In this document: piece by piece, positions 7,101 through 53,060 of the stretch
Layout: the number at the start of each line of letters is the position of its first letter
Numbering within the stretch: the stretch's first letter is position 1
The notes under the pieces: generated by a model
Told to the model about the DNA's origin: nothing
What the model saw: the letters and a program-made list of their open reading frames with translations, nothing else
Databases searched by the model: none
Position numbers and translations under genes: made by a program
Assembly: GCA_025352265.1 (NCBI GenBank)
Contig: JANXTS010000039.1
Coordinates: forward strand, 1-64,000
Direction of reading: 5' to 3'
From: Variovorax sp.
GTDB lineage: Bacteria; Pseudomonadota; Gammaproteobacteria; Burkholderiales; Burkholderiaceae_C
DNA: 64,000 nucleotides

Positions 7101-10100
7101 TGACGGTGCCCTTAAAGAAGAACGCGGCACGGCCGGAGGCGCGCTTGTCGCCACTCTGGTCTTTGAGACCAGTCAGCTCGGCCTCGAAAGCGGCGCCTGC
7201 GGGCATGGCACCCAGGGCCAAACCGCCGCGCTTGGTGAAGTCCAGCACGCCTTCGACGATGCCAACGCCGATCATCGGACGCATCTCGGGCAACAGCGTC
7301 AATCGCACTTCCTTGACCAGATCGCCAGCAGTCACGCGGATGCGCGCATCGCCCGGCTCGCCCGGTGGCAGCAGATGGAACTCGGCCGCACCACCTTCCA
7401 TGAATACCTGCGTGCCGGGCTCGGCGGGATTCAGGTCGTCCTCGATCCAGCGGCCACGGTCGCTCTCCAGCGTGAGTTGGGTCCGGGCAGTGACGGGGAC
7501 ACCGGCTGCGTCGACCAAGCGCACCTTGACGATGACCGGCGTGCGCAGGTCGGCGCGGGCCACTTCGGGCAGATCGATCTGGATGGCGGAAAGCTTGTCG
7601 GGCGCGGTCACGCTGATCTGTATCGGCGCGCCGTGGGCGTTACCGAAGTCGTCGACCGCCTCAAGCTTCAAGGTGTTGCGGCCGGGCTTGAGCAGTACGC
7701 CGATGTACTCCCAAGCGCTAATCTTCTTGCTGGCGAGTTGCGTCTTCTTGCCCACGCGGCTGCCGTCGGCTGCAACGCCGTTGACGGTCAGGCGCAGTGA
7801 CAGGGCCAATTCGCCTTTGACGCGCACATTGAGCGACTGGCTGGCGACGGTGTCGCCATCTTTAAGGCCGATGAATCCAAGCGCGTTGCTGTCGAGTTGG
7901 GGCAGCAGCACTTCGAGGTCGATGGCGCTGGGGGTGGCCTGCGGCAGCAGCGACGGGCTGCGCGGCTCGAGCATGGTGCCGCTGGTGCTGACCGGGCGGC
8001 TCGCAAAAGCGCCCGCGCCGGTTGCAGTGCCGCTGACGGCCGACGAAGGCAGGCCGTTGGTCGGCAGGCTGTTCAGCGCGCTGAAAAGGCTGCCCGCCGG
8101 GGTCGGAGCCGCAGCGCTTGCCATGCCCAGCGTGCCACCACCTGAGCCGCCCGCGGCACTCACGAAGGTGCTGGGCTTGGCAACGGCTGCGGGCATCGCG
8201 ATCAGCGGCGCAGACGTGCGTTGCACCGCGCCGGTGCTGCCGCTTGAGAGCGACTGACCGCTGGCCGGCAGCGAGCGTGTGTCGCCGACGGGAATGATCT
8301 TTCCTTCAGGGTCCAGACGCAGCCGGACCTGCGCTTCGGCTTCGGTGTCTGGCACCGCGGCGATGGCTGCGCGACGGGCGGTCACCTCATCGATCACACC
8401 CTTGTCGTCGAAGTTGGTGATGATGAAGTTGGCTTTGTGGAACTCGCCCTTCTTCAAGTCGACGAAGCGGCTTTCAGGCGTGCCCGAGTTGCGGTTGTCC
8501 AGCACTTCCAGGCGCGCGCCGCGAGGCAAGGTGGTTTGGTCCAACCGCAGCACATGGGTGATGGGCTTCAAGCCGTACAGGCTCCACTTGCCTTCGACGT
8601 CGGTCACGACATTGGTGCCGTTTTCCAGATACAGGCGCACACCGGGGACGCCAAGTTCGTCCAGGCCGTTCTGCTTGCTGTCTTGCTTGCCATCGCGCTT
8701 GCAATCCAGATACACCTTGCCAAAAGCAAAGGCATCGTCGGAGAACACGCCGCCGGTGACTCGCACCGTCCAGCTGGCAAGGTTGGAGGTGATCGGGCCC
8801 GAGAACGCGCGCGCCCGGTTGATCGCATCGCCGTTGGTGGGCGCACCGACCCCGATGCGCACGCGATAGCGCACCACCGCAGACTGGTCCAGCCCGAGCA
8901 CCAGTGCCGGGAAGCTGAAGCCCAGCGCCGGCCCTGCGCCGCCGGCCGGGTTGGCCGCGACGGCACCGTTCACGCGTGCGCTGTTGGCAACGAACGCAAA
9001 GCCTGGCGGCAGGCTGTCGGTAAAGCTGACACCGGTCACTGCAAAGCCGGTCTTGTTGGTGACGGTCAGCGCGTAGTCCATGAAGTCACCAAGCTCGGCC
9101 TGACGCTTGCTGCCGTCCTTGCGCAGCAGGAGGCCCAGCACGTTGCCCGGGTCCAGTGGAATGTGGTCATGCACCACGTCGCAGGCGGTGCCGTCGGGGT
9201 TCACGCCCGAGACGACCGCAAAGTAGTAGGTGGTCGCATCGGCGGGTTGGGGCGCCGCGATGTTGGGCACGATGGCCCCGCAGCGGGCAAAGCTGCCCGG
9301 TGTCGGCGGAATGAGCACCGACGGGTACACATAGCCACTGCCGGCCGGGGGCACGACCGCAATGCCGTAAGTGCACAGACCGGTGATGGGCGGCGACTGC
9401 AGGTAGAACTGGAAGGCGCCGTCCGCGCCGGTCGTCATCGACATGCTGCCGTTGGCGTTGAAGGTGTAGATGCCTGAATCGGCGCCTGCGATCTCAGCGG
9501 GGATGAGGGGCGTCACCGGGCCGCCATTGCACGACTGGCGCGTGTAGGTGACCAGGGCCCCGGTCACCGGCTGGCGGGTGACCGAGTTGTAGACGGTGCC
9601 CTGCGGGTCGACCAGCAGCGACTGCACCGAGCTAGCGGTGGCGGCGACCAGCATTGCCGGCGTCACGTTGATGGTGTTCAGGTCGAACGCAGCTGCCCAG
9701 GCTTTGTTGGTGGCGCTCACGCGGTTGCCGATGGCTGCGGGCTTCTCGGTAATGCGCACCGTGAAGCTGAGCTGCTCGCTCTGGCCAGGCGCCAGGGCGC
9801 GGCTGCCGTCGGTCATGCTCAGGGCCGCCTCGGTGGGCAGGATGAACGGATCCGCACTGTTGAGCGTGGTGCGGTTGCAGATGGCTTGGCCGGTGAAGCT
9901 GGCTGCCGGGATCAGCAGCCCATTGGCCGCCTTGGGCGCGCTCAGAAGGGTCCAAGAGGCGATCAGGCTGCCCGGCTTGTCCATGTCGAACGTGCAGTTC
10001 AGGTTGTCGATCACGCGCACGTTGGGTGCGGGGGCCAGACCCGTGTTCGTCACTTTAAAGGTGTAGTCGATGTCAAAGACACCGGGTGTGACCCGGCGCG

Positions 10101-38310: not shown

Positions 38311-38955
38311 TCACTTGCGGCCCAGCGACAAAACTTCGTGCGCATTGACGATCGCCGCTGCAATGTCTTCCACCGGGCTGCGCTTGCTCATGGCCTGGTC
38401 GCGCATCAGGTCGTAGGCTTCAGTTTCGGAGATGTGGTGGGCCTTCATGAGGATCGCCTTGGCGTCGGCCACATGGCGCACGCCGAGCAGCTTGGCCTCC
38501 ACCTTGCGCAGGCGTCGCGCCAGCGAGCGATTTTCTCTGTGTGCCTCGCGCGCCAGCACCAACGCCGACAGCAACCCGAACGAACGCACTGGAGACGGCA
38601 GCACGGCGCGCGCACCCAAGCCCAGCACCGCTTCGACGATGGTCGGGTTCTCATAAGTGACGACGGCGATCACCGCCGGCGCATCGTCGCGCTGCGTCCA
38701 TTCAAACTGCAGGCCGATGATGTCGGGCCGCACCGCCATGAACGCGATGTCAATGCCTGCCGGCAAGGTTTGCACCGGTGGCCAGAACGCCTGCACCTGG
38801 CAGCCGATGCGCTGCAATTGCTGGGTCAGTTGCTGGCCATCGGCGTCGTCCGGATGAATCACCGCGACTTTCAGCGCACGCAGTTCCTTCAACTGCACGG
38901 GCGTCACACGTAATGTGGGACGCAGCACGGCGCGAGGGGCGGTGACGTCGGACAT
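38311..38955 (-). CDS. amiR: AmiR-like ANTAR-domain transcription antiterminator
   Basis: 214 residues from the ATG at 38955, which overlaps the amiC-like stop (ATGA). The N-terminal part (about 25-140) is a receiver-like fold without the usual acidic phosphorylation pocket, as in AmiR. A short coiled coil (SLARRLRKVEAKL) leads into the C-terminal ANTAR domain (DAKAILMKAHHISETEAYDLMRD and following), which binds paired RNA hairpins. In Pseudomonas AmiR is held inactive by AmiC until an amide binds. The likely RNA target is the terminator leader before urtA at the other end of this operon. Confidence 0.92.
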   Translation of the reverse strand: MSDVTAPRAVLRPTLRVTPVQLKELRALKVAVIHPDDADGQQLTQQLQRIGCQVQAFWPPVQTLPAGIDIAFMAVRPDIIGLQFEWTQRDDAPAVIAVVTYENPTIVEAVLGLGARAVLPSPVRSFGLLSALVLAREAHRENRSLARRLRKVEAKLLGVRHVADAKAILMKAHHISETEAYDLMRDQAMSKRSPVEDIAAAIVNAHEVLSLGRK

Positions 38956-40109
38956 CACACCGGCAGCGTGTCGAGCTTGGCGGTCCAGTCGCCCAAGGAG
39001 TGGGTGACCAGGTACGGATCGGGGTAGACCGAGCGCGTAGCCTGCCGCACGATGGTGAACTGCCCGTCGACGTTGACTCGCCCGATGCGGGGATACAAGC
39101 AGGTGTGATGGTTGGTCGGGTCGATCTTCACACGCCCCTGCGGCGCATCGAATTCACTGCCCAGAATGTGCGGCAGCAAGCGCGCAATACCTTCGTCGTC
39201 CGACTGGCGCAGCGCGTTGGCAAAAATGTGCATCTGGAAATACGACGACTCCCAGCACAGGTTGGGCACACTGCCATCGCCAAAGTGCTGGCGCAGCCGC
39301 GTCAGGCAGCGCCGATTGGCGTCCGACTGGATCGACTGGAAATATGGCGCCGACGTGTAGTGGCCCGCCGCCACGCCACGCGCCATCTGCGAGATCTCGG
39401 CCTCCGATGTCGTCAGGCTGGCGATGGGCATGGTCTTGGGGTCGAAACCAGCCTCGGCATAGGCCCGGTACAGCGCAGCTGTGGACTCACCGACCACCGT
39501 CGAAAAAATGAAATCGGGTCGCTTGTTGCGAATGTCGGCGATCACGGCGGCGTAGTCTTTTTCGGTGGCATCGAGCGCCATGTAGCGCTCGGCCAGCTTC
39601 TCGCTGCCAGGCCGCTGGAGCACCAGTTCGCCCATGATCCGATTCGACTCGTAGGGATAGATGTAGTCCGAGCCGATCAGGTAGACGCGCGCGCCAAAGT
39701 TGGCGGTCATGAACTCAGCCAACTGCACGCTGTTCTGGTTGGGCGCGGCCCCGGTGTAGATCACGTTGCCGGAATACTCGAAGCCTTCATAGAGCGTCGG
39801 ATAGAACAACAGCTTGTTCCACTTCTCGACCACCGGGATCACGGCCTTGCGGCTGCTCGACATGTAGCAACCGAAGATCACGTTGACCCCGTCTTGCACG
39901 ATAAGCCGCTCGGCCAAATCGGCATAGCGCGCGGGCTGAGATTGTGGGTCGTAGCGCACCGCGACTAGCTCCCGCCCATCAATGCCGCCGGCCTCGTTGA
40001 TCTCTTCGATCCCGAGCAATGCTCCTTGCAACTGCGACAGTCCGATGGTTGAAGTGACGCCCGTTTCCGAAAAAAGAATGCCGACCCGAACCGGGTCTTT
40101 GTCAGCCAT
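38955..40109 (-). CDS. amiC: AmiC-like cytoplasmic amide sensor
   Basis: 384 residues, type I periplasmic-binding-protein fold but without a signal peptide (starts MADKDPVRVGILFSETG), as expected for AmiC, which stays in the cytoplasm and sequesters AmiR. It shares blocks with the transporter binding protein of the same operon: GCYMSSSRKAVIPV and LIGSDYIYPYESNRI here against GCYTSASRKAVLPV and LVGSDYIYPRTCNKI there. AGGAGG lies 8 bases before the ATG. It is separated from the VWA gene by 111 bases. Confidence 0.92.
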   Translation of the reverse strand: MADKDPVRVGILFSETGVTSTIGLSQLQGALLGIEEINEAGGIDGRELVAVRYDPQSQPARYADLAERLIVQDGVNVIFGCYMSSSRKAVIPVVEKWNKLLFYPTLYEGFEYSGNVIYTGAAPNQNSVQLAEFMTANFGARVYLIGSDYIYPYESNRIMGELVLQRPGSEKLAERYMALDATEKDYAAVIADIRNKRPDFIFSTVVGESTAALYRAYAEAGFDPKTMPIASLTTSEAEISQMARGVAAGHYTSAPYFQSIQSDANRRCLTRLRQHFGDGSVPNLCWESSYFQMHIFANALRQSDDEGIARLLPHILGSEFDAPQGRVKIDPTNHHTCLYPRIGRVNVDGQFTIVRQATRSVYPDPYLVTHSLGDWTAKLDTLPV

Positions 40110-40220: not shown

Positions 40221-42290
40221 TCAGCGGGACACCAGTCCCGCGCAGGCGCGCTGAAGTTGCGCCGGCAGTCTTTGCACGTCGTCGACCACGCTGTAGTTGC
40301 GCCAACCGAAAATGCGCCGCACATAGGGGTCGGCTGCTGCATCGACAGCGATGCAATGGGTCAGCACGCCGTCACGGCGCGCCTCCAACACGGCGGCGCG
40401 GGCGTCTTCGGTGAGGTAACGAGGCTCGTGCACATCGATGTCCGAGGGCGCGCCGTCGGTCACCAGCAGGATCGAGCGCTGACCAGCCGATTCGTGTCGC
40501 AGCAGGTGGGTAGCGTGGCGCAAAGCTGCACCCATGCGCGTCGAAAAGCGGGCCTGCACCGCGTCGATCATGCCGCGTGAAACGGGGGTCGGCAGCGTGC
40601 CGAACTCGAGCAGCCGGTAGTAATAAACCTCCGCGCGCGTGTTCGATGAAAAGCCATGGATCGCCAACCGGTCGCCGTCGGGCGTGACCGATTCGGCGAG
40701 CAACAACGCCGCCTGCTTTTCGATGTCGAGCAAAGACAGCGCCGCGCCGCCAACACGGTCGTTGGCTGAAGCCGACAGGTCCAGCAGCACCAGGATGCTC
40801 GACAACCCCAGTTCGCGACCCGGTCGCATGAACAGGCGCGGATCGGGTTGTAGGCGCGAGCGCCGGTCGACCATCACCTCGATGGCGGCGTTCAGATCGA
40901 CATCGTCGCCCTCCCATTGGCGGCGCAACCGACGCGTACGGCTGAAGCGGCGCGCACGCGGCAGCGCCAATGCGGACGGGGTCGCGTTGCGCCCCGTCTT
41001 ATCGCGCGCCACCCCCATGCCTTGCCAGGCCGGCAGCTTCTCGATGACCGTGCACCAATCAGGCCGCAGCCGTTCGATACGTCGGTCCCATTCGGGGTAT
41101 CTGAAGCGGCCGAGTTCCATCTCGGGACCACCGGCTTGCGCCTCGCCGCTCCCGTCGTCAAGAGGCGGTGAAGCATCCAACGGCGCATGCGCGCTTTGTT
41201 CCTGCACCGCCAACGCCTCGTCCGGCGGCGTCTGGGCATCGGCGAACCTCCAGAGATAACTGTGGTCGTCGCGGTACGGCGCCGGCACCACGAATTGCTG
41301 CGGATTGAACTGCACGCGCATCTGGCCCAGGTCGTTGGCGAGGATGGCCGCCACCGCACGGAACGCGTCGTAGTCGGCCAGCCCGGCCGAAGCGGCAGTG
41401 GCATCGAACAGCCGGCGCGCCTTGTTAACCCAGTAGTTGTCGTCCTGGTACGCCGCATCGATCAATGCCCGATCCATGCGCGACAGCAGCGCGGCAAAGC
41501 CCAGGTCGCGCGGGTTCGGCACCGGCGCCAGCGCGTCGATGAACCAGCGCCGCACGCCGGGGAGGTCGCGCAGCAACAGATGCTCGACGCGCGCGTCTTC
41601 CATTGCCGAGACCACGGCAATGCCCATCGGTTTGAGCGTGCCCGCCGGCCGGGCCGGTTGAGAATAGCGCCGGTGCGCGACGGCATGCGCGACCGCTGCT
41701 CGGTACAGCCGCAGCCGGTCACCGGCCCCATCGAACACCGTGTAGTCGTCGGGAACCAGCAGATGCGTGGTGGTGAGCACCGGGCGCAGGCGCGGCGCAT
41801 TGAGCTGGGTCTGCTGGCGTGGCTGCACCAGCATCGCGGGGCCGGCACGCGGGCTCAACGCCACGTCACCGAGCGGGCCCAGCAAGCCAGCGGCCAGCAG
41901 ATTGAGCGAGGGCAACGCGCGTTGCAGCGGCTCGGCACCGGCCTCGCCGTGCAGTGCGGCGACGGCCTGCGCATCGTCCAAACTGAACCAGGCGCGCTGA
42001 CGTTGCCGGTCGGTCGCATGATGGCGGAGGCCCGCCAGGATCCAGCGCCCGAGGCCGTCGGCGTTGAGGCCGTCGAGTACGCGCTCCAACCGCGCGGCCA
42101 GCGCCAGCGCGCTCGGCGCATCTTCTTCGTGCAACAGGTGCAGCCAGCGCAGCGCGGTGGCCGCCTGCGCGCGCCCGTCCGCGCCGCCCTGCGCGGTGGC
42201 GGCAAAGCGCGCGAGCTGCGGCGCCAGCAGATCGGACAGCGCGCTGCGGCTGGTGCTGGCACAGACGGCGGCACCAGCGTCGTTCGTCAT
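40221..42290 (-). CDS. NorD/CbbO-like von Willebrand factor A protein
   Basis: 689 residues. The C-terminal VWA domain (about 480-689) has the MIDAS motif DLSAS in ILVLLDLSASANDRVGG and VTDGAPSDIDVHEPRYL. The N-terminal half is helical and rich in Ala and Arg. Its ATG overlaps the MoxR gene stop (ATGA), forming the classical MoxR-VWA pair (NorQ-NorD, CbbQ-CbbO) that remodels or activates client enzymes. The client here is unknown; the amidase or another operon product is possible. Confidence 0.88.
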   Translation of the reverse strand: MTNDAGAAVCASTSRSALSDLLAPQLARFAATAQGGADGRAQAATALRWLHLLHEEDAPSALALAARLERVLDGLNADGLGRWILAGLRHHATDRQRQRAWFSLDDAQAVAALHGEAGAEPLQRALPSLNLLAAGLLGPLGDVALSPRAGPAMLVQPRQQTQLNAPRLRPVLTTTHLLVPDDYTVFDGAGDRLRLYRAAVAHAVAHRRYSQPARPAGTLKPMGIAVVSAMEDARVEHLLLRDLPGVRRWFIDALAPVPNPRDLGFAALLSRMDRALIDAAYQDDNYWVNKARRLFDATAASAGLADYDAFRAVAAILANDLGQMRVQFNPQQFVVPAPYRDDHSYLWRFADAQTPPDEALAVQEQSAHAPLDASPPLDDGSGEAQAGGPEMELGRFRYPEWDRRIERLRPDWCTVIEKLPAWQGMGVARDKTGRNATPSALALPRARRFSRTRRLRRQWEGDDVDLNAAIEVMVDRRSRLQPDPRLFMRPGRELGLSSILVLLDLSASANDRVGGAALSLLDIEKQAALLLAESVTPDGDRLAIHGFSSNTRAEVYYYRLLEFGTLPTPVSRGMIDAVQARFSTRMGAALRHATHLLRHESAGQRSILLVTDGAPSDIDVHEPRYLTEDARAAVLEARRDGVLTHCIAVDAAADPYVRRIFGWRNYSVVDDVQRLPAQLQRACAGLVSR

Positions 42291-43105
42291 CCGAACTGCG
42301 CCTCGACAAAGCCCTGCAACGCGCGCGCCATGTCCGGATCGTCCGTCAGCCCGCGCGTCATCGTCATCTCGCAGCTGTCTTGCGGCGACACACCATCGCG
42401 AATCAGCACGCCCGCGTAGATCAGCATCCGGGTCGACACGCCCTCTTCCAGCCCACGCTGCTTAAGCGCGCGCGAGCAGTGCGCAATGCTGACGAGCTGC
42501 GCCGCCAACGCCAGCGCAATGCCCGATTCATGCGCCACGATGCTGGCTTCGATCCCGGCCTCGGGGTAGTCGAAGGCCAGCGCCGCAAAGCGCTGCCGGG
42601 TCGACGGCTTCATGTCCTTGGCGCTGCTTTGGTAGCCAGGGTTGTACGACACCACCAATTGAAAGTCGGGATGGGCACGCACCAGTTCACCCTTCTTGTC
42701 GAGCGGCAACATGCGGCGCGCATCCGTCAGCGGGTGAATTACCACAGTGGTGTCCTGCCGCGCCTCGACCACCTCGTCGAGGTAGCAGATGCCACCGTGG
42801 CGCACCGCCAAAGTCAGTGGTCCGTCGTGCCAGGCCGTGCCCTGCGCGTCCAGCAGGTAGCGCCCGATGAGGTCCGAGGCCGTCATGTCTTCATTGCAGG
42901 CCAGCGTGACGAGCGGCCTGCCCAGCTTCCAGGCCATGTACTCGACAAAGCGCGTCTTCCCGCACCCGGTCGGCCCTTTGAGGATCAACGGCATCCGGTG
43001 CACATAGGCACTTTCGTACAACGCCACCTCGTTGCCGGCTGGTTGGTAAAACGGCTCGGTCTCAATGCGATAGCCAGCGAGCGGATCGGGGACGGCGACG
43101 TTCAT
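42287..43105 (-). CDS. MoxR-family AAA+ ATPase (NorQ/CbbQ-like)
   Basis: 272 residues. Walker A KGPTGCGKTRFVEYMAW, Walker B ICYLDEVVEAR, sensor 1 VVSYNPGYQ and an arginine-finger region STRQRFAAL. The LACNEDMTASDLIGRYLL segment is typical of the NorQ/CbbQ/GvpN group. It couples ATP hydrolysis to remodelling with the VWA partner. In Pseudomonas the amide operon also carries an AAA protein (AmiB, of another class), so this may be a functional counterpart; that is inference. Confidence 0.92.
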   Translation of the reverse strand: MNVAVPDPLAGYRIETEPFYQPAGNEVALYESAYVHRMPLILKGPTGCGKTRFVEYMAWKLGRPLVTLACNEDMTASDLIGRYLLDAQGTAWHDGPLTLAVRHGGICYLDEVVEARQDTTVVIHPLTDARRMLPLDKKGELVRAHPDFQLVVSYNPGYQSSAKDMKPSTRQRFAALAFDYPEAGIEASIVAHESGIALALAAQLVSIAHCSRALKQRGLEEGVSTRMLIYAGVLIRDGVSPQDSCEMTMTRGLTDDPDMARALQGFVEAQFG

Positions 43106-44112
43106 GGCGTGGCGAGCAGTTCCTTGAGCGCGGCATCGATGAAGCGGGTGTCGACCGGACTGCTACCGCCGCCGGCGAAGTGGCCCCACACGCCCGGGAT
43201 CGGGCGGCACTCGGCATTCGGCATATGCGACACCTCCCATTCGTTGTCGGCTACCGGAAAATACAGGTCACGTTCGGCCGGCATCACGATCGCGCGCGCC
43301 TTGATGGCGCCCAGCGCCTTCTCGAAATCGCCCTTGAACACCGGGTTGTCGCTGATGTCGCCGTGCTGCCACGACCACAGCATGGCGAGCAGGTTGTTAG
43401 CGTCCTTCTTCAGGAAGAAGCCTTCCCAAAACCCGACCAAAAAATCGTCCAGCGAGCTGAAGCCCAGCTCGCGCCACAACGTCTGCTTGTAGAAAGGCTG
43501 CGACAGCCCCCAGCCCGCATACACGCGGCCGACCGCGCGCAGACCCTTGCTTGGCGGCGTGCTGTACCAACCGCCATTCCATGCCGCATCGGTCTGGATT
43601 GCGGCCTTCACGCCTTCGAGGAACACGATGTTGTGCGGCGCCGTTTTCGCCGAGCCGCAGAAAGGCGCGATACGCTGGACCATGTCGGGGTACAGGCAGC
43701 CCCACTGGTTGGTCTGCTGCGCGCCCATCGACCAGCCCACCACCAGCGCAACCCGGTCGATGCTGAATTTTTCCGTCACCAGCCGGTGCTGCAGCGTGAC
43801 GTTGTCGTACAGCGTGATGTTCGGAAAGCGCGCTTGGTTGTAGGGCTCGGGCGTGTTGCTGGGCGAGGACGACAGACCGTTGCCCAGCATGTTCGGCACG
43901 ATGATGAAGTATTTTTCCGGGTCCAGCGCCATACCCGGGCCAATCAGCCATTCGTTGTCGTAGTGCTGACCCGAGTACCAGGTCGGGTAGACGATCACGT
44001 TGCTCCTGTCGGCGTTGAGCTTGCCGTAGGTCTTGTAGGCGAGCTTGGTATTGCGCAGGGTGGCGCCGTGTTGCAGGAGCACATCCCCCAAATCGAAAGT
44101 GTCGTAATCCAT
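43102..44112 (-). CDS. MetX-like alpha/beta-hydrolase
   Basis: 336 residues from the ATG at 44112; its stop overlaps the MoxR ATG. Alpha/beta-hydrolase related to homoserine O-acetyltransferase: nucleophile elbow VGWSMGAQQ, acid in PAERDLYFP and His in GVWGHFAGGG. The N-terminus (GATLRNTKLAYKTYGKLNAD) is typical of the MetX-like group. A methionine role is unlikely in this operon; it may hydrolyse an ester or amide, or transfer an acyl group. Substrate unknown. Confidence 0.85.
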   Translation of the reverse strand: MDYDTFDLGDVLLQHGATLRNTKLAYKTYGKLNADRSNVIVYPTWYSGQHYDNEWLIGPGMALDPEKYFIIVPNMLGNGLSSSPSNTPEPYNQARFPNITLYDNVTLQHRLVTEKFSIDRVALVVGWSMGAQQTNQWGCLYPDMVQRIAPFCGSAKTAPHNIVFLEGVKAAIQTDAAWNGGWYSTPPSKGLRAVGRVYAGWGLSQPFYKQTLWRELGFSSLDDFLVGFWEGFFLKKDANNLLAMLWSWQHGDISDNPVFKGDFEKALGAIKARAIVMPAERDLYFPVADNEWEVSHMPNAECRPIPGVWGHFAGGGSSPVDTRFIDAALKELLATP

Positions 44113-44138
44113 GATGATTGCTGCTTTCAAGTGAGGGT

Positions 44139-45452
44139 TCAGGTCTTGATGGGAGGCGAGACCGTCGCCACCGGCGCAACGCTGCGGATGTGGAGCACGG
44201 CATAGCAAACCGCCGCCGCGACGAAGGCGATCACGGCCGTCGACAGCTGCGGCGCCATCTTCTCAATGGCATAGGCCGCCAACGAGCCTACGCCCCAGGC
44301 GATGAACGCGCTCGGCCGCCAGTCGGCACCGATGACGGCGCCCGGCCGCACAAAATAAAGATCGACGATCAGGATGGCACCGATCGGCGGCACCACGATG
44401 CCCAGCAGCGACAGCCACGGAATAAAAAAGGCCCACACATTGGCCGCCGCGATGACGATGCCAAAGGCGGCAAGCACCACGGCAAACACGCGCATACGCC
44501 CGTTACCAATGCGCGACCAGCCCACGGCCGAGTTGTAGAGGCAGTGCGCGCACACCGAGCCCAGGTTGCACAGCAAGAACACGAAAGCGACCACGGCCAG
44601 CCAGGGCGCGTTCTGCGCCAGCATGTAGCCGAACATGTTGTCCAGGCCAAAGGGCTGCGGCTGCGGCAATGCCAGCGCGGCGGTCATGGTGCCACCGACC
44701 AGCATGGCGATCAGGTTGGCCACGGGAAAGGCGCAGGCCGTGGCGATCAGCGAGCTCTTGCGGTTGGCAGCCCAGCGGTTGAAGTCCGCCGTGACGGTAC
44801 CCGCGTCGACGAACAGCGCCACCACAATGGTCAAGCCGATGCCGAAGGACATCGGCAACGCGGCCTGCGTGCCGGCGTATGCCAACACGTTGCCCCAACC
44901 CGCCGTGGAAGCGGAGTCCAGCGCCACCCAGCCGCCCAGTACCACGAACAATGGCACCGACACCATGCCGATCCAGTGCAGGCCGCGGATGCCGACGAAG
45001 GTGATGCCCAGATACAGCACGCCCGCTGCAACGGTCATCGTCAAGTAGTCGACCTTGAAGGCGGTGTGCATCAGGTTGCCCGTGATGCCAGTCTGCACGG
45101 CGTACCAGCCCAACAGCAGGGTCGACAGCAGACCGGAGGCAAACACATAGCCCTTCTTGCCAAAACTGGCGCTCGCCAGCAGCGCGAAGTTGTGGCCGCG
45201 CGCCGTTCCCAGTGCGCCCAGCGATCCGACGTACGCAAACATCAACAGGTTGCCCACGACCATCGCGAGCAGCGCGGACTGGAAGCCCATGCCCGCCACC
45301 AGGATGGAGCCGGTCATGGCGCCCGTGATGATCATCGGGAACCCGAGCCACACCATCGACACCGAGAAGGTGCTGCGTCGCTTCGAGAGCGGAACCGGGT
45401 CGTGCTCGTACTCTTCACCGAGCACCGTGTTGTCGACATGCTTCTGACTCAT
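44139..45452 (-). CDS. NCS1-family permease (cytosine permease-like)
   Basis: 437 residues from the ATG at 45452, with AAGAGGT 7 bases upstream. About twelve membrane helices; the N-terminal MVWLGFPMIITGAMTGS and the DFNRWAANRKSS loop fit CodB-like NCS1 transporters of nucleobases and related small nitrogen compounds. Its presence beside an ABC transporter suggests a second uptake route, perhaps for a different amide. Substrate unknown. Confidence 0.85.
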   Translation of the reverse strand: MSQKHVDNTVLGEEYEHDPVPLSKRRSTFSVSMVWLGFPMIITGAMTGSILVAGMGFQSALLAMVVGNLLMFAYVGSLGALGTARGHNFALLASASFGKKGYVFASGLLSTLLLGWYAVQTGITGNLMHTAFKVDYLTMTVAAGVLYLGITFVGIRGLHWIGMVSVPLFVVLGGWVALDSASTAGWGNVLAYAGTQAALPMSFGIGLTIVVALFVDAGTVTADFNRWAANRKSSLIATACAFPVANLIAMLVGGTMTAALALPQPQPFGLDNMFGYMLAQNAPWLAVVAFVFLLCNLGSVCAHCLYNSAVGWSRIGNGRMRVFAVVLAAFGIVIAAANVWAFFIPWLSLLGIVVPPIGAILIVDLYFVRPGAVIGADWRPSAFIAWGVGSLAAYAIEKMAPQLSTAVIAFVAAAVCYAVLHIRSVAPVATVSPPIKT

Positions 45453-45517
45453 GACATACCTCTTTTCTTGCTTTGACGTTGAATGTGAGGGAAACGGAAG
45501 GCGCGGTTTGTCGCGCT

Positions 45518-46555
45518 TTAACGGTGCTTGTTGGTCTGGTTGGGAATGCCTTCGATCGGACATTCATCGGTTCCGACGGTGGTTCGGGTGAACGACTCGA
45601 CCTGCTCGCGCGCAGCCTCGGGGTCGTTGACCCACTTTTCGTAGAAGGTGAAGGGGCACGCCGCCACGCCCTTGTCGCCATCACCCGAATTGATGGTGCC
45701 GGTGTAGCCCCGGTGCAGCAACTTGAACAGGTGGTTTTGCGACTGGCCGTTTTTGCGGGCATCGCGGATCAGGCTCATCGACAGCTCGCCGTAATTGATG
45801 CCCATCTCTTCTTCGCCGCATTCGCCCAGCGTGCGCCCATCGAAACCGATAATTGCCGAGTGGCCGAAGTACGAGTACACACCGTCGAAGCCCGCCGCAT
45901 TGGCAACGGCCACATACGTGTTGTTCATAAATGCCATGGCTTTGGACACCAGGATCTGCTGCTCCTTGGCCGGGTACATATAGCCTTGGCAGCGGATGAT
46001 TAGTTCAGCGCCCTTCATCGCGCAGTCGCGCCAAATCTCCGGATAGTTGCCGTCGTCGCAAATGATGAGGCTGATCTTCATGCCCTTGGGGCCGTCGCTC
46101 ACGTAGGTGCAGTTACCGGGGTACCAGCCTTCGATGGGCACCCACGGCATGATCTTGCGGTACTTCTGGACGATCTCGCCCTTGTTGTTCATCAGGATCA
46201 GCGTGTTGTAGGGCGCCTTGTTCGGGTGCTCTTCGTGACGCTCTCCAGTCAGCGAAAACACACCCCAGACATTGGCCCTGCGGCAGGCATCGGCAAAGAT
46301 CTCCGTTTCTTCACCGGGCACGGTGGCCGCCGTGTCGTACATCTCTTTGGCGTCGTACATGATGCCGTGCGTCGAGTACTCGGGGAACACCACCAGGTCC
46401 ATGCCCGGCAATCCCTTTTTCATGCCGACCAGCATGTCGGCAATCTTGCGTGCGTTGTCCAGCACCTCGGCCTTGGTGTGCAGGCGCGGCATCTTGTAGT
46501 TGACGACCGCGACACCGACGCAATCGTTGCTGCTTGAAATATCACCATGTCTCAT
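45518..46555 (-). CDS. amiE: Aliphatic amidase
   Basis: 345 residues, one shorter than the Pseudomonas AmiE, and collinear with it ([20 protein letters not shown]). Nitrilase-type triad: Glu in [10 protein letters not shown], Lys in [16 protein letters not shown] and Cys in [13 protein letters not shown]. It hydrolyses short aliphatic amides such as acetamide or propionamide to the acid and ammonia in the cytoplasm. It follows the ABC transporter genes after 28 bases. Confidence 0.96.
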
Positions 46556-46583: not shown

Positions 46584-47273
46584 TCAGATGGTCAGGAACG
46601 AGCGCACCCGGTCCTGATCGAGGTGAGTTCGGGCTTCGTCGTGCACGATGCGCCCGCGGTCAATGACCAGAAATCGGTCGGCCAGGTCGAGCGCAAAGCT
46701 CAGCACCTGCTCCGAGACGACGATGGCGAAACCGCGCTCCTTGCGCAGCACATTGAGCGTGTGCGCCAGCTCCTTGATGATCGAGGGCTGGATGCCTTCG
46801 GTCGGCTCGTCCAGGATCAGCACCTTGGGGTCCGAAATCAGTGCGCGTGCGATGGCCAACATCTGCTGCTGGCCGCCCGAAAGGTTGCCGCCCTTGCGGT
46901 GCTTCATTTCCTGAAGCACCGGGAAAAAACGGTACAGGTAGTCGGGGACCATGCGGTGGCCCGAGTGCTCGGCGCCGGTCAGAATGTTTTGCTCGACCGT
47001 CAGGAACGGAAACACCATGCGCCCCTGAGGCACAAAGGCCAGCCCCTGCTTCACACGCTTGAAACTGGGCAGGCCGGCCAGTTCATGGCCGTTCAGCCGA
47101 ATACCGCCAGACCGCGCTGGCAGCAGTCCGATCAACGCCTTCAGCAACGTCGTCTTGCCCATCCCGTTACGCCCCATCACGGCGACGGATTCGTTGGCAC
47201 CGACCGACAGCGAGATGTCGTGGACCACGTGGGATTCGCCATAGGCGACGTTGAGTTTCGAGACTTCAAACAT
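46584..47273 (-). CDS. urtE: Urea/amide ABC transporter ATPase (UrtE-like)
   Basis: 229 residues from the ATG at 47273. LivF/UrtE-type ABC ATPase: Walker A GRNGMGKTTLLKALIG, signature LSGGQQQMLAIARAL, Walker B VLILDEPTEGIQPSI. The LPARSGGIRLNG and EGIQPSIIKEL details favour UrtE over LivF. It pairs with UrtD to energise UrtBC. Confidence 0.9.
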   Translation of the reverse strand: MFEVSKLNVAYGESHVVHDISLSVGANESVAVMGRNGMGKTTLLKALIGLLPARSGGIRLNGHELAGLPSFKRVKQGLAFVPQGRMVFPFLTVEQNILTGAEHSGHRMVPDYLYRFFPVLQEMKHRKGGNLSGGQQQMLAIARALISDPKVLILDEPTEGIQPSIIKELAHTLNVLRKERGFAIVVSEQVLSFALDLADRFLVIDRGRIVHDEARTHLDQDRVRSFLTI

Positions 47274-47287
47274 GGCGCGGCTTTCTT

Positions 47288-48118
47288 TCAATGACCAAGG
47301 TACACATCGATGACGCGTCGGTCCGACTGGACCTCGGCGGCACTGCCTTCGCTGAGCAACTTGCCCTGGTGCAACACAGTCACCTTGTGCGCGATGCGTT
47401 TGACGAAATCCATGTCGTGCTCGATCACCACCACCGATTTACCTTGGGCGATGCGGCTCAGCAGGTCACCGGTTTGTTCACGCTCGCGCGGGCTCATGCC
47501 GGCCACCGGCTCGTCGAGCAGCAGCAGTTGGGGCTCCTGCATCAACAACATGCCGATTTCAAGCCACTGCTTTTGCCCATGACTGAGCTGACCGGCGCGT
47601 CGGCCGAGCTGATCGCGCAGATAGACTTCGCCGGCCATCGCGTCGATGCGCTTACGCACTTCGGCGGTGCGACGGAAGGTGAGCGACTGAAACAACCCAT
47701 GCATCCTGGGCAACGAGATTTCGAAGTTCTCGAACACGGTCAGGTCTTCGTAAACCGACGGCGTCTGGAATTTGCGTCCCACCCCGGCACGCACGATCCG
47801 GTGCTCGCTCATTCGGGTCAGGTCCAGCCCGTTGAACATCACGCGGCCACTGGTCGGTTTGGTCTTGCCGCAAATCATGTCGAGCAGCGTGGTCTTGCCC
47901 GCACCATTCGGGCCGATGATCACGCGCAACTCGTTGCGTTCGACAGACAGGCTCAGGGCATCGACAGCCTTGAAGCCGTCGAACGACACGGTGAGGTCTT
48001 CAACCCGCAAAATTTCCTCACGAGCCGGAGCGACGGGGGCGCTGCTGCCAGGCGCAGGCATCGCGCCCGACGCCATCATGGGCTGGAGCGTGGCGAGCGG
48101 ACCCATCACGGCGCTCAT
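47288..48118 (-). CDS. urtD: Urea/amide ABC transporter ATPase (UrtD-like)
   Basis: 276 residues from the ATG at 48118, which overlaps the urtC stop (ATGA). LivG/UrtD-type ATPase: Walker A IIGPNGAGKTTLLDMICGKT, signature LSHGQKQWLEIGMLL (the UrtD-type variant with H-G-Q-K-Q-W) and Walker B LLLLDEPVAGMSP. An Ala/Pro/Met-rich extension of about 40 residues precedes the domain. Confidence 0.91.
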   Translation of the reverse strand: MSAVMGPLATLQPMMASGAMPAPGSSAPVAPAREEILRVEDLTVSFDGFKAVDALSLSVERNELRVIIGPNGAGKTTLLDMICGKTKPTSGRVMFNGLDLTRMSEHRIVRAGVGRKFQTPSVYEDLTVFENFEISLPRMHGLFQSLTFRRTAEVRKRIDAMAGEVYLRDQLGRRAGQLSHGQKQWLEIGMLLMQEPQLLLLDEPVAGMSPREREQTGDLLSRIAQGKSVVVIEHDMDFVKRIAHKVTVLHQGKLLSEGSAAEVQSDRRVIDVYLGH

Positions 48119-49164
48119 GACCGGGCCGCCCGTGCCTTGCGCTGCCAAGGCAAGAGGTCGGTCAGACCGGCCAGGCCATTGGGCATGGCCCAGACCACCA
48201 GGATAAACACGGCCCCGAGAAAATAGAGCCAGCCTTCCGGAAAAAGCTCTGACAGATAGGACTTGAGGAAACCAATCAGCAGGGCACCGACCACGGCCCC
48301 CGGAATCGACAGTCGTCCGCCGACCGCTGCATAGATGACCATCTCGACGGAGGCGACCACACCGATCACGCCGGGTGCGATGAGTCCGACCTGCAGGCTG
48401 TAGAACGCACCGCCGATGGAGGACAGGACGGCTGCCACGGCAAAGACGAAGGCTTTCATATGGGCCGTGTCGTAGCCGCTGAAACGCGCGCGGTCCTCAC
48501 GGTCCCTGATCGCAATCAGTATCTTGCCGAAACGGCTGCGCACGATCGCCAGCGAAAGCACCATCACCAGCACCATCGCGGCCACTTCGATGAAGTACAT
48601 CGTGCGTTTGGCGCTGTCACTCAGGATGTCCCAACCCAGCAGCGTGCGGAAATCGGTAATTCCGTTGGCGCCGCCGGTGTCGCCTTGCTGGCCGATCACC
48701 ACCACGGTCAGCGTGAGTGCCAGTGACAGCGTGACGATGGCAAAGTAGACCCCGCTCACGCGTTTGCGAAAAATGGCATACGAGAAGACATAGGCCAGTA
48801 CCGCCGGGATCAGCAGGACGGCAAGCAATGTCCACCCGAGTGAGTGAAACGGTTGCCACCAGGCGGGGAGTTGCTCGACACTGCTCCACACCATGAAGTC
48901 GGGCAGTTCCGGGGCAGAAGCTTCGAGCTTCAGGAACATCGCCATCATGTAGCCACCCATGCCGAAGAACATGCCTTGGCCAAGGCTCAACACCCCGCCA
49001 TAGCCCCAGGTCAGCACAATGCCGACCGCCACAAAGCCGAAGGCAAGGTACTTGCCGATCAGATTCAAACGAAACGCGTCGAGCGCGGCGGGCAGCACGA
49101 CCGCCAGCAGCAAGGTGACCAGCAGCACTGCGAGAACGTCGGAGCGACGTTGCATGTTTGGCAT
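48115..49164 (-). CDS. urtC: Urea/amide ABC transporter permease (UrtC-like)
   Basis: 349 residues from the ATG at 49164, four bases after the urtB stop. LivM-type permease with about ten helices; GYGGVLSLGQGMFFGMGGYMM is the family segment and RFGKILIAIRDREDRARFSGY the cytoplasmic loop. It forms the channel with UrtB. Confidence 0.91.
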   Translation of the reverse strand: MPNMQRRSDVLAVLLVTLLLAVVLPAALDAFRLNLIGKYLAFGFVAVGIVLTWGYGGVLSLGQGMFFGMGGYMMAMFLKLEASAPELPDFMVWSSVEQLPAWWQPFHSLGWTLLAVLLIPAVLAYVFSYAIFRKRVSGVYFAIVTLSLALTLTVVVIGQQGDTGGANGITDFRTLLGWDILSDSAKRTMYFIEVAAMVLVMVLSLAIVRSRFGKILIAIRDREDRARFSGYDTAHMKAFVFAVAAVLSSIGGAFYSLQVGLIAPGVIGVVASVEMVIYAAVGGRLSIPGAVVGALLIGFLKSYLSELFPEGWLYFLGAVFILVVWAMPNGLAGLTDLLPWQRKARAARS

Positions 49165-49168
49165 GGTG

Positions 49169-50071
49169 TCAGTTCCTTGAGCGCACGGCGAAAAGACCAT
49201 TCGGGCGGAAATAAAGCACCACGATCACCAGCAACAAAATGGTGGCTTTGGCCATCGAGCCACTTAGCAGGAACTCCATCCAGGTCTGGGATTGGGCGAT
49301 GGCAAAAGCCGACAGGGCCGTGCCAAAAAGACTTTGCACCCCGCCGAAAACCACCACGATGAAGGAGTCGACAATGTAGAGCTGGCCGGTCCCGGGGTTG
49401 GTCGATCCGATCATGGTGAACACGCATCCGGCAATGCCAGCCAAGCCAGAGCCCAGGGCAAAGGTGATGGCATCGACCCGGTTGGTATCGATACCGACCG
49501 CGCCGGCGATCGCACGGTTTTGCGTCACGGCCCGCACCTTCAGCCCCCAGCGGGTTCGGTACAGCAACAGGTAAACCGCGACCGCGACCACGGCTGTCAG
49601 CGCCACGATGAAAAGGCGCGTCAGCGGCAACTGGATGCCACTGACGGGCTCCCACGCACCGGCCAGCCAGGTTGGCAGCGGCACGCTGACTTCCTGCGCG
49701 CCGAAGATGTTGCGGTAAGCCTGTTGCAGCATCAGGCTCAGTCCCCAGGTGGCAAGCAGCGTGTCGAGCGGGCGGTTGTAAAAGAACCGTATAAAGCCTC
49801 GTTCCAGCAAATAACCAAAGGCAAAGGTGACGGCAAAGGCAAACGGAATCGCCGCGAAGAGATAGACGTCCATCCAGCCGGGCGCGAAGCGTTCAAAGAA
49901 TTTGGCGGCAACGTAAGTCAGGTAGGCGCCCAGCGCCATCAGTTCGCCATGCGCCATATTGATGACGCCCATCAGGCCAAACACGATTGCCAGACCCAGC
50001 GCCATGAGCAACAAAATGGTGAACAGGCTGACCCCGTTGAACACCTGCATCACCGCAATATCAAAACCCAT
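49169..50071 (-). CDS. urtB: Urea/amide ABC transporter permease (UrtB-like)
   Basis: 300 residues from the ATG at 50071. LivH-type permease: IVFGLMGVINMAHGELMALGAY, RPLDTLLATWGLSLMLQQ and VDSFIVVVFGGVQSLFGT. It partners UrtC in the inner membrane and lies 93 bases after urtA. Confidence 0.92.
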   Translation of the reverse strand: MGFDIAVMQVFNGVSLFTILLLMALGLAIVFGLMGVINMAHGELMALGAYLTYVAAKFFERFAPGWMDVYLFAAIPFAFAVTFAFGYLLERGFIRFFYNRPLDTLLATWGLSLMLQQAYRNIFGAQEVSVPLPTWLAGAWEPVSGIQLPLTRLFIVALTAVVAVAVYLLLYRTRWGLKVRAVTQNRAIAGAVGIDTNRVDAITFALGSGLAGIAGCVFTMIGSTNPGTGQLYIVDSFIVVVFGGVQSLFGTALSAFAIAQSQTWMEFLLSGSMAKATILLLVIVVLYFRPNGLFAVRSRN

Positions 50072-50164
50072 GGCACTGCTGCTTTCGTGAAGAAACCTGA
50101 AATGCTGGAGTCGCCTGGAGCCCAGCACGAAGGGTGCCGGCATTGGTCGCCGGCAACACTTTCC

Positions 50165-51343
50165 TTACAGCTTGGGGAACGGGTTTGGTTCGATCATTGG
50201 GGACTCCCAGACAATGTCGAACTGACCATCGGGGCGCGCGCGGCCGATGCGCACTTTCTTGGCGACGTGGTGGTTGCCCGCGACGCGGACCAAACCTTCC
50301 GGTGCCTGGAGCTCCATGCCTGGCGCGCTCGCCACGACTTTTTCGATATCAAAGGACTTGGCCTTTTCGACCATCATCTTCCACAGGTAAACGCTGTTGT
50401 AGGCGCACTCCATCGGATCCCCGATGACGCGCTCCTGCCCGTACTTGGCCTTGAAGGCCTTGACGAATTTTTCGTTGGCCGGTGATTTGATGCTCTGGAA
50501 ATACCCCATGCAGGCGTAATAGCCGGCGGCATTGTCTTTGCCGATGCCTTCGATTTCGTTTTCCGAGACCACGGTTGACAGCAAAACCTGTTTCGTGCCG
50601 TCGAGGCCCGCGGCGCGCAGTTGCTTGTAAAAAGCCACGTTGGAGCCACCCACCACCGTGCTGTAGATCACGTCGGGCTTGGCAGCCTTGATCTTGTTGA
50701 TGATCGAAGAAAACTCGGTGTGACCCAGCGGAACATATTCCTCGCCCACGACCTTGCCGCCAGCTTTCACAATGGTGGGTTTGGCGATCTTGTTGCAGGT
50801 GCGCGGATAGATGTAGTCGGAACCGACCAGGAAGAAAGACTTGCCTTTTTCCTTGGCCAGCCAGTCAATCGCCGAAATCACCGACTGGGTGGCTTCTTGC
50901 GAGGTATAAAACACATGCTTATCCTCTTCCTGGCCTTCGTAGTAGGTCGGGTAGAACAGCAGACCCTTGGTCTGGCTCAGCACTGGCAGCACCGCCTTGC
51001 GTGAGGCCGAGGTGTAGCAGCCGATGATGGCGGCCACCTTGTCGCGCTCGATCAGCTTGCGCGCCTTCTCGGCGAACACCGAGTTTTCGCTCGCCCCGTC
51101 TTCAATGACCACTTCAATCTTCTTGCCCATCACGCCGCCTGCGGCGTTGATCTCTTCGATGGCCATTTTTTCGGCGTCGACCAGTGAGGCTTCGGCGATC
51201 GCAATGGTGCCCGAGAGCGAGTGCAACAGGCCGAGCTTGACGGTGTCCTGTGCGAAAGTTCGAGTGACCGTGCCGGCGGCGGCACCCAGCACGAGCATGG
51301 TGCTTCCGGCTTTCACGATCTGGCGGCGATTCATCGGGTTCAT
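50165..51343 (-). CDS. urtA: Urea/amide ABC transporter binding protein (UrtA-like)
   Basis: 392 residues from the ATG at 51343, with AGGAA 8 bases upstream. Twin-arginine-like signal (MNRRQIVKAGSTMLVLGAAA), then a type I binding-protein fold: VKLGLLHSLSGTIAIAEASL, EINAAGGVMGKKIEVVIEDG, LFYPTYYEGQE and SDYIYPRTCNKI. UrtA-family proteins bind urea or short amides; with amiE in the operon, amides are likely. First gene of the 12-gene operon, placed just after the terminator leader. Confidence 0.92.
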   Translation of the reverse strand: MNPMNRRQIVKAGSTMLVLGAAAGTVTRTFAQDTVKLGLLHSLSGTIAIAEASLVDAEKMAIEEINAAGGVMGKKIEVVIEDGASENSVFAEKARKLIERDKVAAIIGCYTSASRKAVLPVLSQTKGLLFYPTYYEGQEEDKHVFYTSQEATQSVISAIDWLAKEKGKSFFLVGSDYIYPRTCNKIAKPTIVKAGGKVVGEEYVPLGHTEFSSIINKIKAAKPDVIYSTVVGGSNVAFYKQLRAAGLDGTKQVLLSTVVSENEIEGIGKDNAAGYYACMGYFQSIKSPANEKFVKAFKAKYGQERVIGDPMECAYNSVYLWKMMVEKAKSFDIEKVVASAPGMELQAPEGLVRVAGNHHVAKKVRIGRARPDGQFDIVWESPMIEPNPFPKL

Positions 51344-51475: not shown

Positions 51476-51517
51476 AAAAAGCCCCGAACCGGTGGTGAAC
51501 CGGTTCGGGGCTTTGTT
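51476..51517 (-). terminator. Strong (bidirectional) terminator in the urtA leader
   Basis: A perfect 13-bp stem (51481-51493 with 51499-51511; arm begins GCCCCGAACCGGT) with a 5-base loop, followed on the minus strand by TTTTT (51476-51480) and on the plus strand by TTTGTT. It lies between fumC and urtA, both on the minus strand. It can end fumC transcripts, and it can block the urtA operon unless antiterminated. Confidence 0.9.
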
Positions 51518-51555
51518 GCCCGACACCTGACTGGCAGCACTGGCAGTCGGTGTCG
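51505..51555 (-). promoter_or_regulatory. Candidate ANTAR-type two-hairpin antiterminator
   Basis: Just before the terminator on the minus strand are two small hairpins. P1 (51529-51548) has GACTG/CAGTC, a C-C mismatch and a C-G pair closing the hexaloop AGTGCT (A at 1, G at 4 as in ANTAR targets); an outer stem CGACACC/GGTGTCG extends it. P2 (51505-51523) has GGGC/GCCC closing hexaloop AACAAA, and its 3' arm is the 5' arm of the terminator. Holding P2 would prevent termination. Position 4 of the P2 loop deviates from consensus. Confidence 0.6.
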
Positions 51556-51674
51556 ATTAATGGGTAACGATTTCTCGTTGAGCAGACTCTAAAAGGGGCC
51601 CCAACGCGCTGTCATCGGGATTTTGACTGATAGACGTATCAAATTGCCCGTGCTATTCGAAAACCCGACCTTCT
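51556..51674 (-). promoter_or_regulatory. Probable promoter region of the amide operon
   Basis: Between the fumC stop and the leader hairpins. It includes a dyad TGATA-N4-TATCA (51628-51641) that could be an operator, and TTGATA as a possible -35 on the minus strand. No convincing -10 is paired with it. Confidence 0.35.
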
Positions 51675-53060
51675 TCACCGACCGATCATGTTCTCCGGCA
51701 CCACCCAGGCATCGAACTGCTCACCTGTGAGGTGCCCTGAAGCCACGGCCGCCTCGCGCAGGCTGCTGCCTTCCTTATGCGCCTTTTTGGCGATGTAGGC
51801 CGCCTTGTCATAGCCGATGTGCGTGTTCAGCGCCGTCACCAGCATCAGCGAGCGTTGCACCAGTTCGGCGATGCGCTCGCGGTTCGGCTCGATGCCGACG
51901 GCGCAATGGTCGTTGAAGCTCACCATGCCATCGGCCAGCAGCCGCACGCTCTGCAGGAAGTTGTGCGCCACCATCGGGCGGAACACGTTGAGCTCGAAGT
52001 TGCCCGACGCACCACCGATGTTGATGGCGACGTCGTTGCCCATCACCTGCGCGGCCAGCATGGTGACCGCCTCACTCTGCGTCGGGTTGACCTTGCCCGG
52101 CATGATCGACGAGCCCGGCTCGTTCTCCGGAATACTCAATTCGCAGATGCCGCTGCGCGGGCCGCTGGCCAGCCAGCGCACGTCGTTGGCGATCTTGTTC
52201 ATGCTGGCGGCCAGTGTCTTGAGCGCGCCGTGCGCATGCACCAGCGCATCGACCGAAGCCATCGACTCGAACTTGTTCGGCGCGGTAATGAAAGGCAGCC
52301 CCGTGAGGCGCGCCAGTTCGGTCGCCACCTGCTCGGCATAGCCCTTGGGCGCATTGAGCCCGGTGCCGACCGCCGTGCCGCCGAGCGCCAGCTCGCACAG
52401 GTGCGGCAGTGCGGCGCGCACATGGGCTTCACCGTGTTTCAGCTGCGCCGCGTAGCCCGAAAATTCCTGGCCCAGCGTCAGCGGTGTCGCGTCTTGTAGA
52501 TGGGTGCGGCCGATCTTCACGATGTCCATGAAGTCAGTCGACTTCTGCTCCAGCGTGCCGCGCAGCTTGGCGATGGCCGGCAGCAGCTTGTGGGTGAGCG
52601 CCTCGACGGCAGCCACATGCATGGCGGTCGGAAACACGTCGTTGCTCGACTGGCTGCGGTTGACGTCGTCGTTCGGATGCACCAGCCGCCCTTCGCCACG
52701 CTCTCCGCCGAGCAACTCGCTCGCGCGGTTTGCCAGCACCTCGTTCACGTTCATGTTGGTCTGCGTGCCGGAGCCGGTCTGCCACACCACCAGCGGGAAC
52801 TCGTCCGGGTGTTTCCCGGCGATGACTTCATCGGCCGCGGCGACGATGGCCTGAGTCTTCTTTTCGTCCTGCAAGCCGAGCGCGTGGTTGACCACCGCCG
52901 ACGCCCGCTTGACCTGCGCCAGCGCCGTGATGATTTCACGCGGCTGGCGCTCGCCCGAGATGTCGAAGTTCTGCAGAGAGCGCTGCGTTTGGGCGCCCCA
53001 GAGCTTGTCCGATGGAACGTCGATGGGGCCGAAAGTGTCGCGCTCGGTGCGTGTGGTCAT
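51675..53060 (-). CDS. fumC: Class II fumarate hydratase
   Basis: 461 residues. Oxygen-stable fumarase of the TCA cycle: [54 protein letters not shown] and the signature [15 protein letters not shown]. Reads towards the amide operon but is separated from it by the strong terminator. Confidence 0.96.

Follow-up and report, generated by a model that had tools for sequence, protein, structure and literature searches.

The gap between fumC and urtA in the window (the whole stretch of 64,000 nucleotides of Variovorax sp. DNA analysed here) very probably holds an ANTAR-type antitermination leader through which AmiR acts on the operon that runs from urtABCDE and amiE to amiC and amiR, and thereby on its own synthesis in a positive feedback. 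This reading builds on the anatomy of the leader, its conservation in related loci, covariation in its first hairpin (P1) and its terminator, the overlap of its second hairpin (P2) with the terminator, and its linkage to AmiR. The leader would operate in the manner of an established type of switch, although one of its letters differs, and the same difference impairs the best-studied example of this type. For annotation purposes, the proposed arrangement accounts for the activation of a 12-gene operon by the gene at its very end.

Anatomy of the leader

The end of fumC at 51675 (minus strand) is followed by 122 bases and then, on the same strand, by P1, P2, the terminator, a run of five T (T5), and urtA. 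P1 (51524–51552, minus strand), the candidate first antiterminator hairpin, presents the hexaloop AGTGCT with A at position 1 (A1) and G at position 4 (G4); below its closing C-G pair come a C.C mismatch and a 5-bp helix, which a bulged A separates from an outer 4-bp helix. P2 (51508–51521, minus strand), the candidate second antiterminator hairpin GGGC[AACAAA]GCCC, has a 4-bp stem with a closing C-G pair and a loop with A1 and A4, and its 3′ arm (51511–51508) is part of the 5′ arm of the terminator. The linker between the two hairpins is 2 nt (51523–51522) when measured from the full P1 helix and longer when only the inner helix is counted. The intrinsic terminator with its T-tract (51478–51514, minus strand; stem 51512–51480, then T5) has 14 Watson-Crick pairs, or 16 including the flanking A/U pairs. 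An earlier note on this DNA had described a terminator with T5 between fumC and urtA, preceded by two small hairpins of which P2 shares its 3′ arm with the terminator; the terminator, the shared arm, and the place of both hairpins stand, but P1 is larger and more complex than described there.

Among 25 terminator-like sites in 13.7 kb, the leader terminator is the strongest by pair count. The 209-nt leader folds at −86.7 kcal/mol, whereas 200 dinucleotide shuffles average −60.8 kcal/mol (sd 4.6), giving a z of −5.6; by our reading this excess is mostly contributed by the terminator. A promoter-like site, ATGACA-18-TAGAGT (51586–51615, minus strand), matches 9 of 12 consensus letters and ends 33 bases upstream of P1; with two such sites in the stretch versus 2.7 expected by chance, it is weak evidence. 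Also upstream of P1 lies an extra small hairpin, P0, with the sequence AACG[AGAAAT]CGTT (51566–51579, minus strand). Among the 65 sites listed, 11 relatives have a P0-like hairpin with arms AACG/CGTT, GACA/TGTC, or GACG/CGTC, and P0 could be a third hexaloop, a 5′-end hairpin, or a DNA site.

The operon and its regulators

Leader and operon lie on one contig of the assembly (4.53 Mb, 108 contigs), and all 12 genes are on the minus strand in the order urtABCDE-amiE-permease-hydrolase-MoxR/CbbQ-VWA-amiC-amiR. The first gene, urtA (50165–51343; ATG at 51343 in a frame open from 51397), matches TIGR03407 with 519.6 bits and is followed by urtB, urtC, urtD, and urtE (46584–50143) of an amide or urea ABC transporter, of which UrtE was assigned by TIGR03410 and UrtB to UrtD by order and sequence. 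Next come amiE for an aliphatic amidase (45518–46555; NF009802, 725 bits) and genes for an NCS1-type (cytosine/allantoin family) permease (44139–45563; PF02133), a MetX-like alpha/beta hydrolase (43102–44208; NF005757, PF00561), a MoxR/CbbQ-type AAA ATPase (42287–43105; PF07728, PF08406), and a VWA-domain protein (40221–42290; PF00092). The MoxR/CbbQ and VWA pair (40221–43105) is found alongside the amidase in many loci, both in those that have AmiR and in those that lack it. At the far end are amiC (38955–40109), which would encode the amide sensor and AmiR inhibitor, and amiR (38311–38958) for the ANTAR antiterminator, whose start is ~12.5 kb from P1.

Both domains of AmiR, the AmiR_N pseudo-receiver (PF21332, 124.7 bits) and ANTAR (PF03861, 49 bits), score above the cut-off; among solved structures, P. 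aeruginosa AmiR (1qo0_D) ranks as its best relative. With P. aeruginosa AmiR as the query, relatives were found in 4 genomes of a sample of 369 from the class, the window's genome included, at identities of 28–33%. The best solved relative of AmiC is P. aeruginosa AmiC (1pea, E 8.3e-94), to which it scores 317.6 bits versus at most 196 bits to the three urea-binding chains listed. Judging from this similarity and from the presence of amiE in the operon, the ligand of AmiC is probably a short aliphatic amide. The 12-gene operon, the amiR-like gene about 12 kb away at its far end, and the AmiC-like sensor gene had all been proposed previously and are borne out here.

Conservation in related loci and linkage to AmiR

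A scan with the amidase gave at least 593 stretches, 587 of them encoding relatives; we compared the leader region with the best 80, which are 84–97% identical and represent the nearest loci by amidase rather than a general sample, and mapped 13 window proteins onto these loci. In relatives, the leader is positioned before urtA, amiE, or the permease gene. Upstream of urtA, P1, P2, and the terminator are readable in 17 of the 19 regions inspected, and in the two exceptions, L033 and L043, urtA is not the operon head. A descriptor for P1, P2, and the terminator in which loop position 4 was left free gave 37 matches in the 80 loci versus 4 in one dinucleotide-shuffled copy of each, and some of the 37 are chance or double matches. 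Demanding A1 and G4 in both loops was too strict to recover the window leader: a scan on these terms gave L079, the NasR-like leader of L001, and nothing else.

A covariance model of P1 and the terminator, R1, was built from 28 leaders chosen from the 80 loci; P2 is not modelled in it. In the window's own genome, R1 gives the leader 84 bits and the runner-up 28.0 bits (150 of 2859 first-look candidates scored). Matches of ~20–45 bits are often plain terminators, and we used 45 bits as a working line, chosen after the scores were known. L156 (44.9 bits) and L014 (42.3 bits) were considered as leaders and rejected, as neither has P1 or P2.

P1 together with P2 was called in a locus when there was an R1 match with E ≤ 1, a closing C-G pair, four or more of the six inner P1 pairs, a six-letter P1 loop, and a closed P2. 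An AmiR gene is present in 43 of the best 80 amidase loci, and P1 and P2 were called in 38 of these 43 and in 2 of the 37 AmiR-less loci; "AmiR-less" here means none within the stretch of at most 10 kb on each side, with some contigs short upstream, and the counts are of raw loci uncorrected for relatedness, with an R1 training set that overlaps the tested loci. Among the AmiR loci that fail the call, L020 has a seven-letter loop in P2, and L033, L035, L050, and L056 have no R1 match, their contigs starting at, or at most 280 bases from, the first gene seen. The contigs of the two AmiR-less loci with P1 and P2, L022 and L047, end in moxR and amiC, ahead of the expected amiR; the remaining AmiR-less loci have either a terminator-like match without P1 or P2 (12 loci, 11 of them from Variovorax) or no match (23 loci).

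In 299 genomes of the family, R1 exceeds 45 bits in 11 and AmiR is found at <1e-50 in 11, with 10 in common, and in all 10 the leader and amiR lie on one contig. G240 has AmiR and an R1 score of 39.3 bits, and G273, a genome that is 85% complete, has an R1 score of 58.6 bits with no AmiR found. At E 1e-4, 31 of the 299 genomes pass, 20 of them below 45 bits; by coordinates, G192 and G240 are the same records as the training loci L030 and L043. Plasmid loci fetched by AmiR, from outside the training set, bear this out: Caballeronia L157 has 65.6 bits before urtA, Paraburkholderia L158 has one leader of 59 bits before amiE and another of 42.5 bits before the divergent permease gene, and L159 has 35.2 bits before a urtA-like gene. 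Rhizobium L160 scores only 24.3 bits.

Covariation was calculated on 58 leaders aligned by fitting to the P1 and terminator helices, and two rows that are false reverse-strand matches were kept in the counts. P1 is paired in 90.0% of cells, shows both-side changes at 9 of 10 pairs, and has a covariation of 0.577 versus 0.227 when shuffled and at most 0.169 when slid; the terminator is paired in 91.1% of cells, with both-side changes at 10 of 13 pairs and a covariation of 0.483 versus 0.166 when shuffled. P2 is paired in 84.9% of cells, its three loop-proximal pairs are nearly invariant, and its covariation of 0.049 gives no support, slides of +1 and +2 scoring higher (0.071 and 0.058). P2 is supported because its 5′ arm GGC, though outside the terminator stem, keeps pairing, with its three pairs holding in 54, 55, and 58 of 58 rows. 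Of 56 leaders, 51 retain the pyrimidine-pyrimidine mismatch under the P1 closing pair, and the spacing between the closing pairs of the P1 and P2 loops is 16 or 17 nt in 38 of 56. The earlier note had named a lack of conservation in relatives as an outcome that would speak against its ANTAR reading; aligned across relatives, the hairpins are conserved, and their near all-or-none co-occurrence with AmiR and the covariation of P1 and the terminator support that reading.

Letters of the hexaloops and class membership

In the work of Ramesh et al. (PMC3369931), the dual-hexaloop motif is defined by A1 and G4 in both loops and is reported for the eut, nasF, and amiE leaders; replacing position 4 by A in loop 1 or loop 2 (G32A, G56A) reduces induction, and the change at the P2-equivalent position (G56A) reduced both EutV-dependent eutP induction and binding. 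Going by these mutants, P2 in the window naturally carries the letter that weakens an EutV target. As reported elsewhere, the sole base that EutV contacts specifically is G4, which flips out to stack on Tyr164, and one hexaloop is bound at a time (Walshe et al., PMC8934654), NasR favours A1 and G4 in selection experiments (PMC7496416), one point variation is tolerated in the loops of ANTAR-target RNA (PMC8164766), and expression of Paracoccus nasA is strongly lowered by mutation of the first hairpin and not of the second (PMC5424462). Searches of the open-licence literature listed no publication that deals with this leader or with A4 loops. A search of 18 kb against Rfam at E ≤ 10 gave no credible match, and the sub-threshold matches at the leader (F6, ctRNA_pGA1, and Spd-sr07) fit the terminator palindrome.

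Like known ANTAR targets, the leader has two adjacent hairpins with six-letter loops, A1 in both, a linker in the range of 2–25 nt, and a second hairpin that overlaps an intrinsic terminator. ANTAR targets also have a closing C-G pair and stems of at least 3 bp; the C-G pair is present in both hairpins and P2 has 4 bp, while in P1 the C.C mismatch precedes the 5-bp helix. G4, which is expected in both loops, is found in P1, and P2 has A4. Because of this A4, the leader is not a full member of the dual-hexaloop class under the strict definition, though it would work like one; by analogy, we take it to be a variant of the motif that would bind AmiR and allow read-through.

To see how the letters vary, we tabulated 62 leaders, consisting of 56 alignment rows (the false two removed) and six that were read separately; the table excludes repeats of the same site as well as L083, L149, L151, and L160, which are unaligned or weak and in which some loops look G4/G4 by eye. 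Both loops have six letters in 59 of the 62, and L034, L063, and L094 have seven in P2. Across these 59 leaders, with near-identical ones each counted, P1 position 4 is G in 45, A in 13, and U in 1, and P2 position 4 is A in 39, G in 18, and U in 2; the combination of A4 in P1 with G4 in P2 is absent from them. Among the 46 distinct loop pairs, P2 position 4 is A in 29, G in 16, and U in 1. G is present in P2 of 14 of 14 alphaproteobacterial leaders in the alignment (in L063 within a seven-letter loop) and also in L031 (two leaders), L079, L113, and L159. On a tree of 49 AmiR proteins, which has long branches and some unsure placements, the P2 letter changes 4 times versus 16.1 times when shuffled; the proteins of G122 and G215, two genomes listed under the same genus as the window's, adjoin those of Variovorax boronicumulans and V. 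beijingensis, which suggests Variovorax or a near relative as the source. P2 without G4, previously flagged as a possible variant, is a conserved trait of the lineage.

P2 positions 4–6 are all purine in 29 of 29 distinct pairs with A4 versus 7 of 16 with G4, so that base-pairing between an A-rich loop and the U-tract can also extend the terminator. Among the AmiR equivalents of EutV Tyr164, Arg168, Met172, and Arg175, no residue that tracks G4 or A4 was visible by eye, and the Tyr164 equivalent is Y, H, or F. Ser at the Met172 place, as in the second AmiR (AmiR2) of the window's own genome, was considered as the determinant of A4 and rejected, A4 leaders with a Met-bearing AmiR being common.

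Proposed mechanism and alternatives

For the ligand, AmiR binding and its order, read-through, and feedback, our working model draws on P. aeruginosa amiEBCRS and on E. faecalis eut. Transcription would start close upstream and by default stop at the terminator. Binding of an amide to AmiC would free AmiR, which would dimerise and grip the hexaloop of P1 and then that of P2 as each leaves RNA polymerase. Because the 3′ arm of P2 is the 5′ arm of the terminator, the terminator could not form with P2 held, and the 12 genes, amiC and amiR included, would be transcribed, with positive feedback via these last genes of the operon. Counting against this model are the missing G4 in P2, the lack of usable covariation in P2, and the leader score in G273 without AmiR. 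Faced with A4 in P2, AmiR may tolerate both purines, may require A, or may recognise P1 alone.

Because it lies directly after fumC on the same strand and has a strong terminator, at which fumC transcripts may well also end, the leader might be merely the fumC terminator with both hairpins incidental. We consider this very improbable, because in relatives the leader precedes urtA, amiE, or the permease gene with no match to fumC in any of the best 80 amidase loci, and because P1 covaries though the terminator has no need of P1. Riboswitches, too, usually take the form of a structured leader and terminator ahead of a metabolic operon; here the RNA itself would bind amide or urea with P1 and P2 as the ligand pocket. 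However, the leader tracks AmiR rather than the amidase, P1 and P2 being missing from 35 of 37 AmiR-less amidase loci, the letters conserved in its loops match those of ANTAR targets, and Rfam gave no credible match over the 18 kb searched, leaving this explanation scarcely any probability.

Within AmiR-dependent antitermination, it is quite possible, although not what we expect, that AmiR reads P1 only and that P2 just folds, its A-rich loop having drifted and strengthening the terminator via the U-tract. The purines that accompany A4 at positions 4–6 point this way, with the reservation that R1 itself models the pairs formed by positions 5 and 6 and so biases the count in this direction, and so does the Paracoccus nasA result (PMC5424462), where the strong loss of expression came from mutation of the first hairpin and not of the second. 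Yet 57 of 59 leaders have a purine at P2 position 4, 52 of 59 keep A at P2 position 1, and several lineages have A4 in P1, which lies outside any terminator, so that an A-tract alone cannot account for A4. If AmiR-dependent antitermination holds, the natural and conserved targets with A4 in one or both loops offer a direct test of the ANTAR recognition code and a way into the question of how many of the two hairpins have to be recognised.

Comparison with known systems

In P. aeruginosa, the amidase genes have the order amiEBCRS. As in the window, this is an amidase operon with its own AmiC sensor and AmiR and with a terminator before the first gene, whereas the window operon starts with urtABCDE and has its regulators ~12.5 kb away. 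The amiE leader of P. aeruginosa is likewise reported to have the dual-hexaloop motif, but with A1 and G4 in both loops (PMC3369931), where P2 of the window has A4. Enterococcus faecalis eut, the target of EutV, also has paired hexaloop hairpins, the second overlapping the terminator, and several leaders per system, comparable to the tandem leaders in L031, L100, and L101; in contrast, EutV is switched by a histidine kinase, and its function is reduced by the G-to-A change at loop position 4 (PMC3369931). The NasR/nasF and NasT leaders of nitrate assimilation share the mechanism, but the NasR-like leader of the window's own genome has G4 in both loops and an R1 score of only 14.4 bits. The amiE-MoxR/CbbQ-NorD-like-amiC-amiR operon on a plasmid of Pseudomonas veronii Yu15 (PMC13209695) has the same core genes; the main text of that paper describes the genes, and the words ANTAR and terminator are absent from it.

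Other ANTAR circuits in the same genome

A search with PF03861 found three ANTAR proteins in the genome. The one on contig C107, NasR-like by eye, lies beside leader L001, whose loops AACGGC and AAAGGC both have G4. A second AmiC/AmiR pair is on contig C63, where leader L090 (C63:95179–95263, minus strand) directly precedes a nitrilase-like gene at a distance of ~8 kb upstream from amiR2. L090 was recognised by eye, R1 giving it only 22.4 bits, and consists of three hexaloop hairpins, GCTGGC[AACAAC]GCCAGC, GCGGC[AACATC]GCCGC, and GGC[AACACT]GCC, with A1 and A4 in all three loops; the third hairpin runs into a terminator, and the motif is triple, not dual. By circuit, position 4 is G/G in the NasR-like leader, G/A in the window leader, and A/A/A in the second AmiR operon, and one hypothesis is that position 4 insulates the three circuits from each other. 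The broader idea that betaproteobacterial AmiR-type ANTAR proteins read a recoded hexaloop, with A4 as the natural letter of P2 and, for some lineages, of P1 as well, and that position 4 helps to separate the circuits of one cell, is speculative and in our judgment rather unlikely to hold.

Additional leaders in related genomes

Separate leaders stand before NCS1 permease and MetX-like hydrolase genes (L145:1318–1398, L158:6639–6724, and L147:9895–9977), suggesting that both genes belong to the amide regulon. The leader would thus mark a regulon in which the permease and the hydrolase, separate units in some genomes, probably serve amide use. In the Variovorax loci L005, L009, L011, L013–L015, L018, L021, L023, L026, and L027, the terminator before amiE is kept (~9880–9980) and P1 and P2 are absent; such terminators in AmiR-less Variovorax loci are possibly relics of a lost switch. 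Two tandem leaders precede urtA in L031:4837–5024 and in L101:515–1583, as in multi-terminator ANTAR systems. In G216, a genome of the same family, three tandem leaders (L144:13078–17372) precede two tubulin-like genes, one matching Tubulin_2 with 46.4 bits (over the cut-off) and the other with 24.9 bits (below it), and MoxR, VWA, amiE, amiC, and amiR follow farther along.
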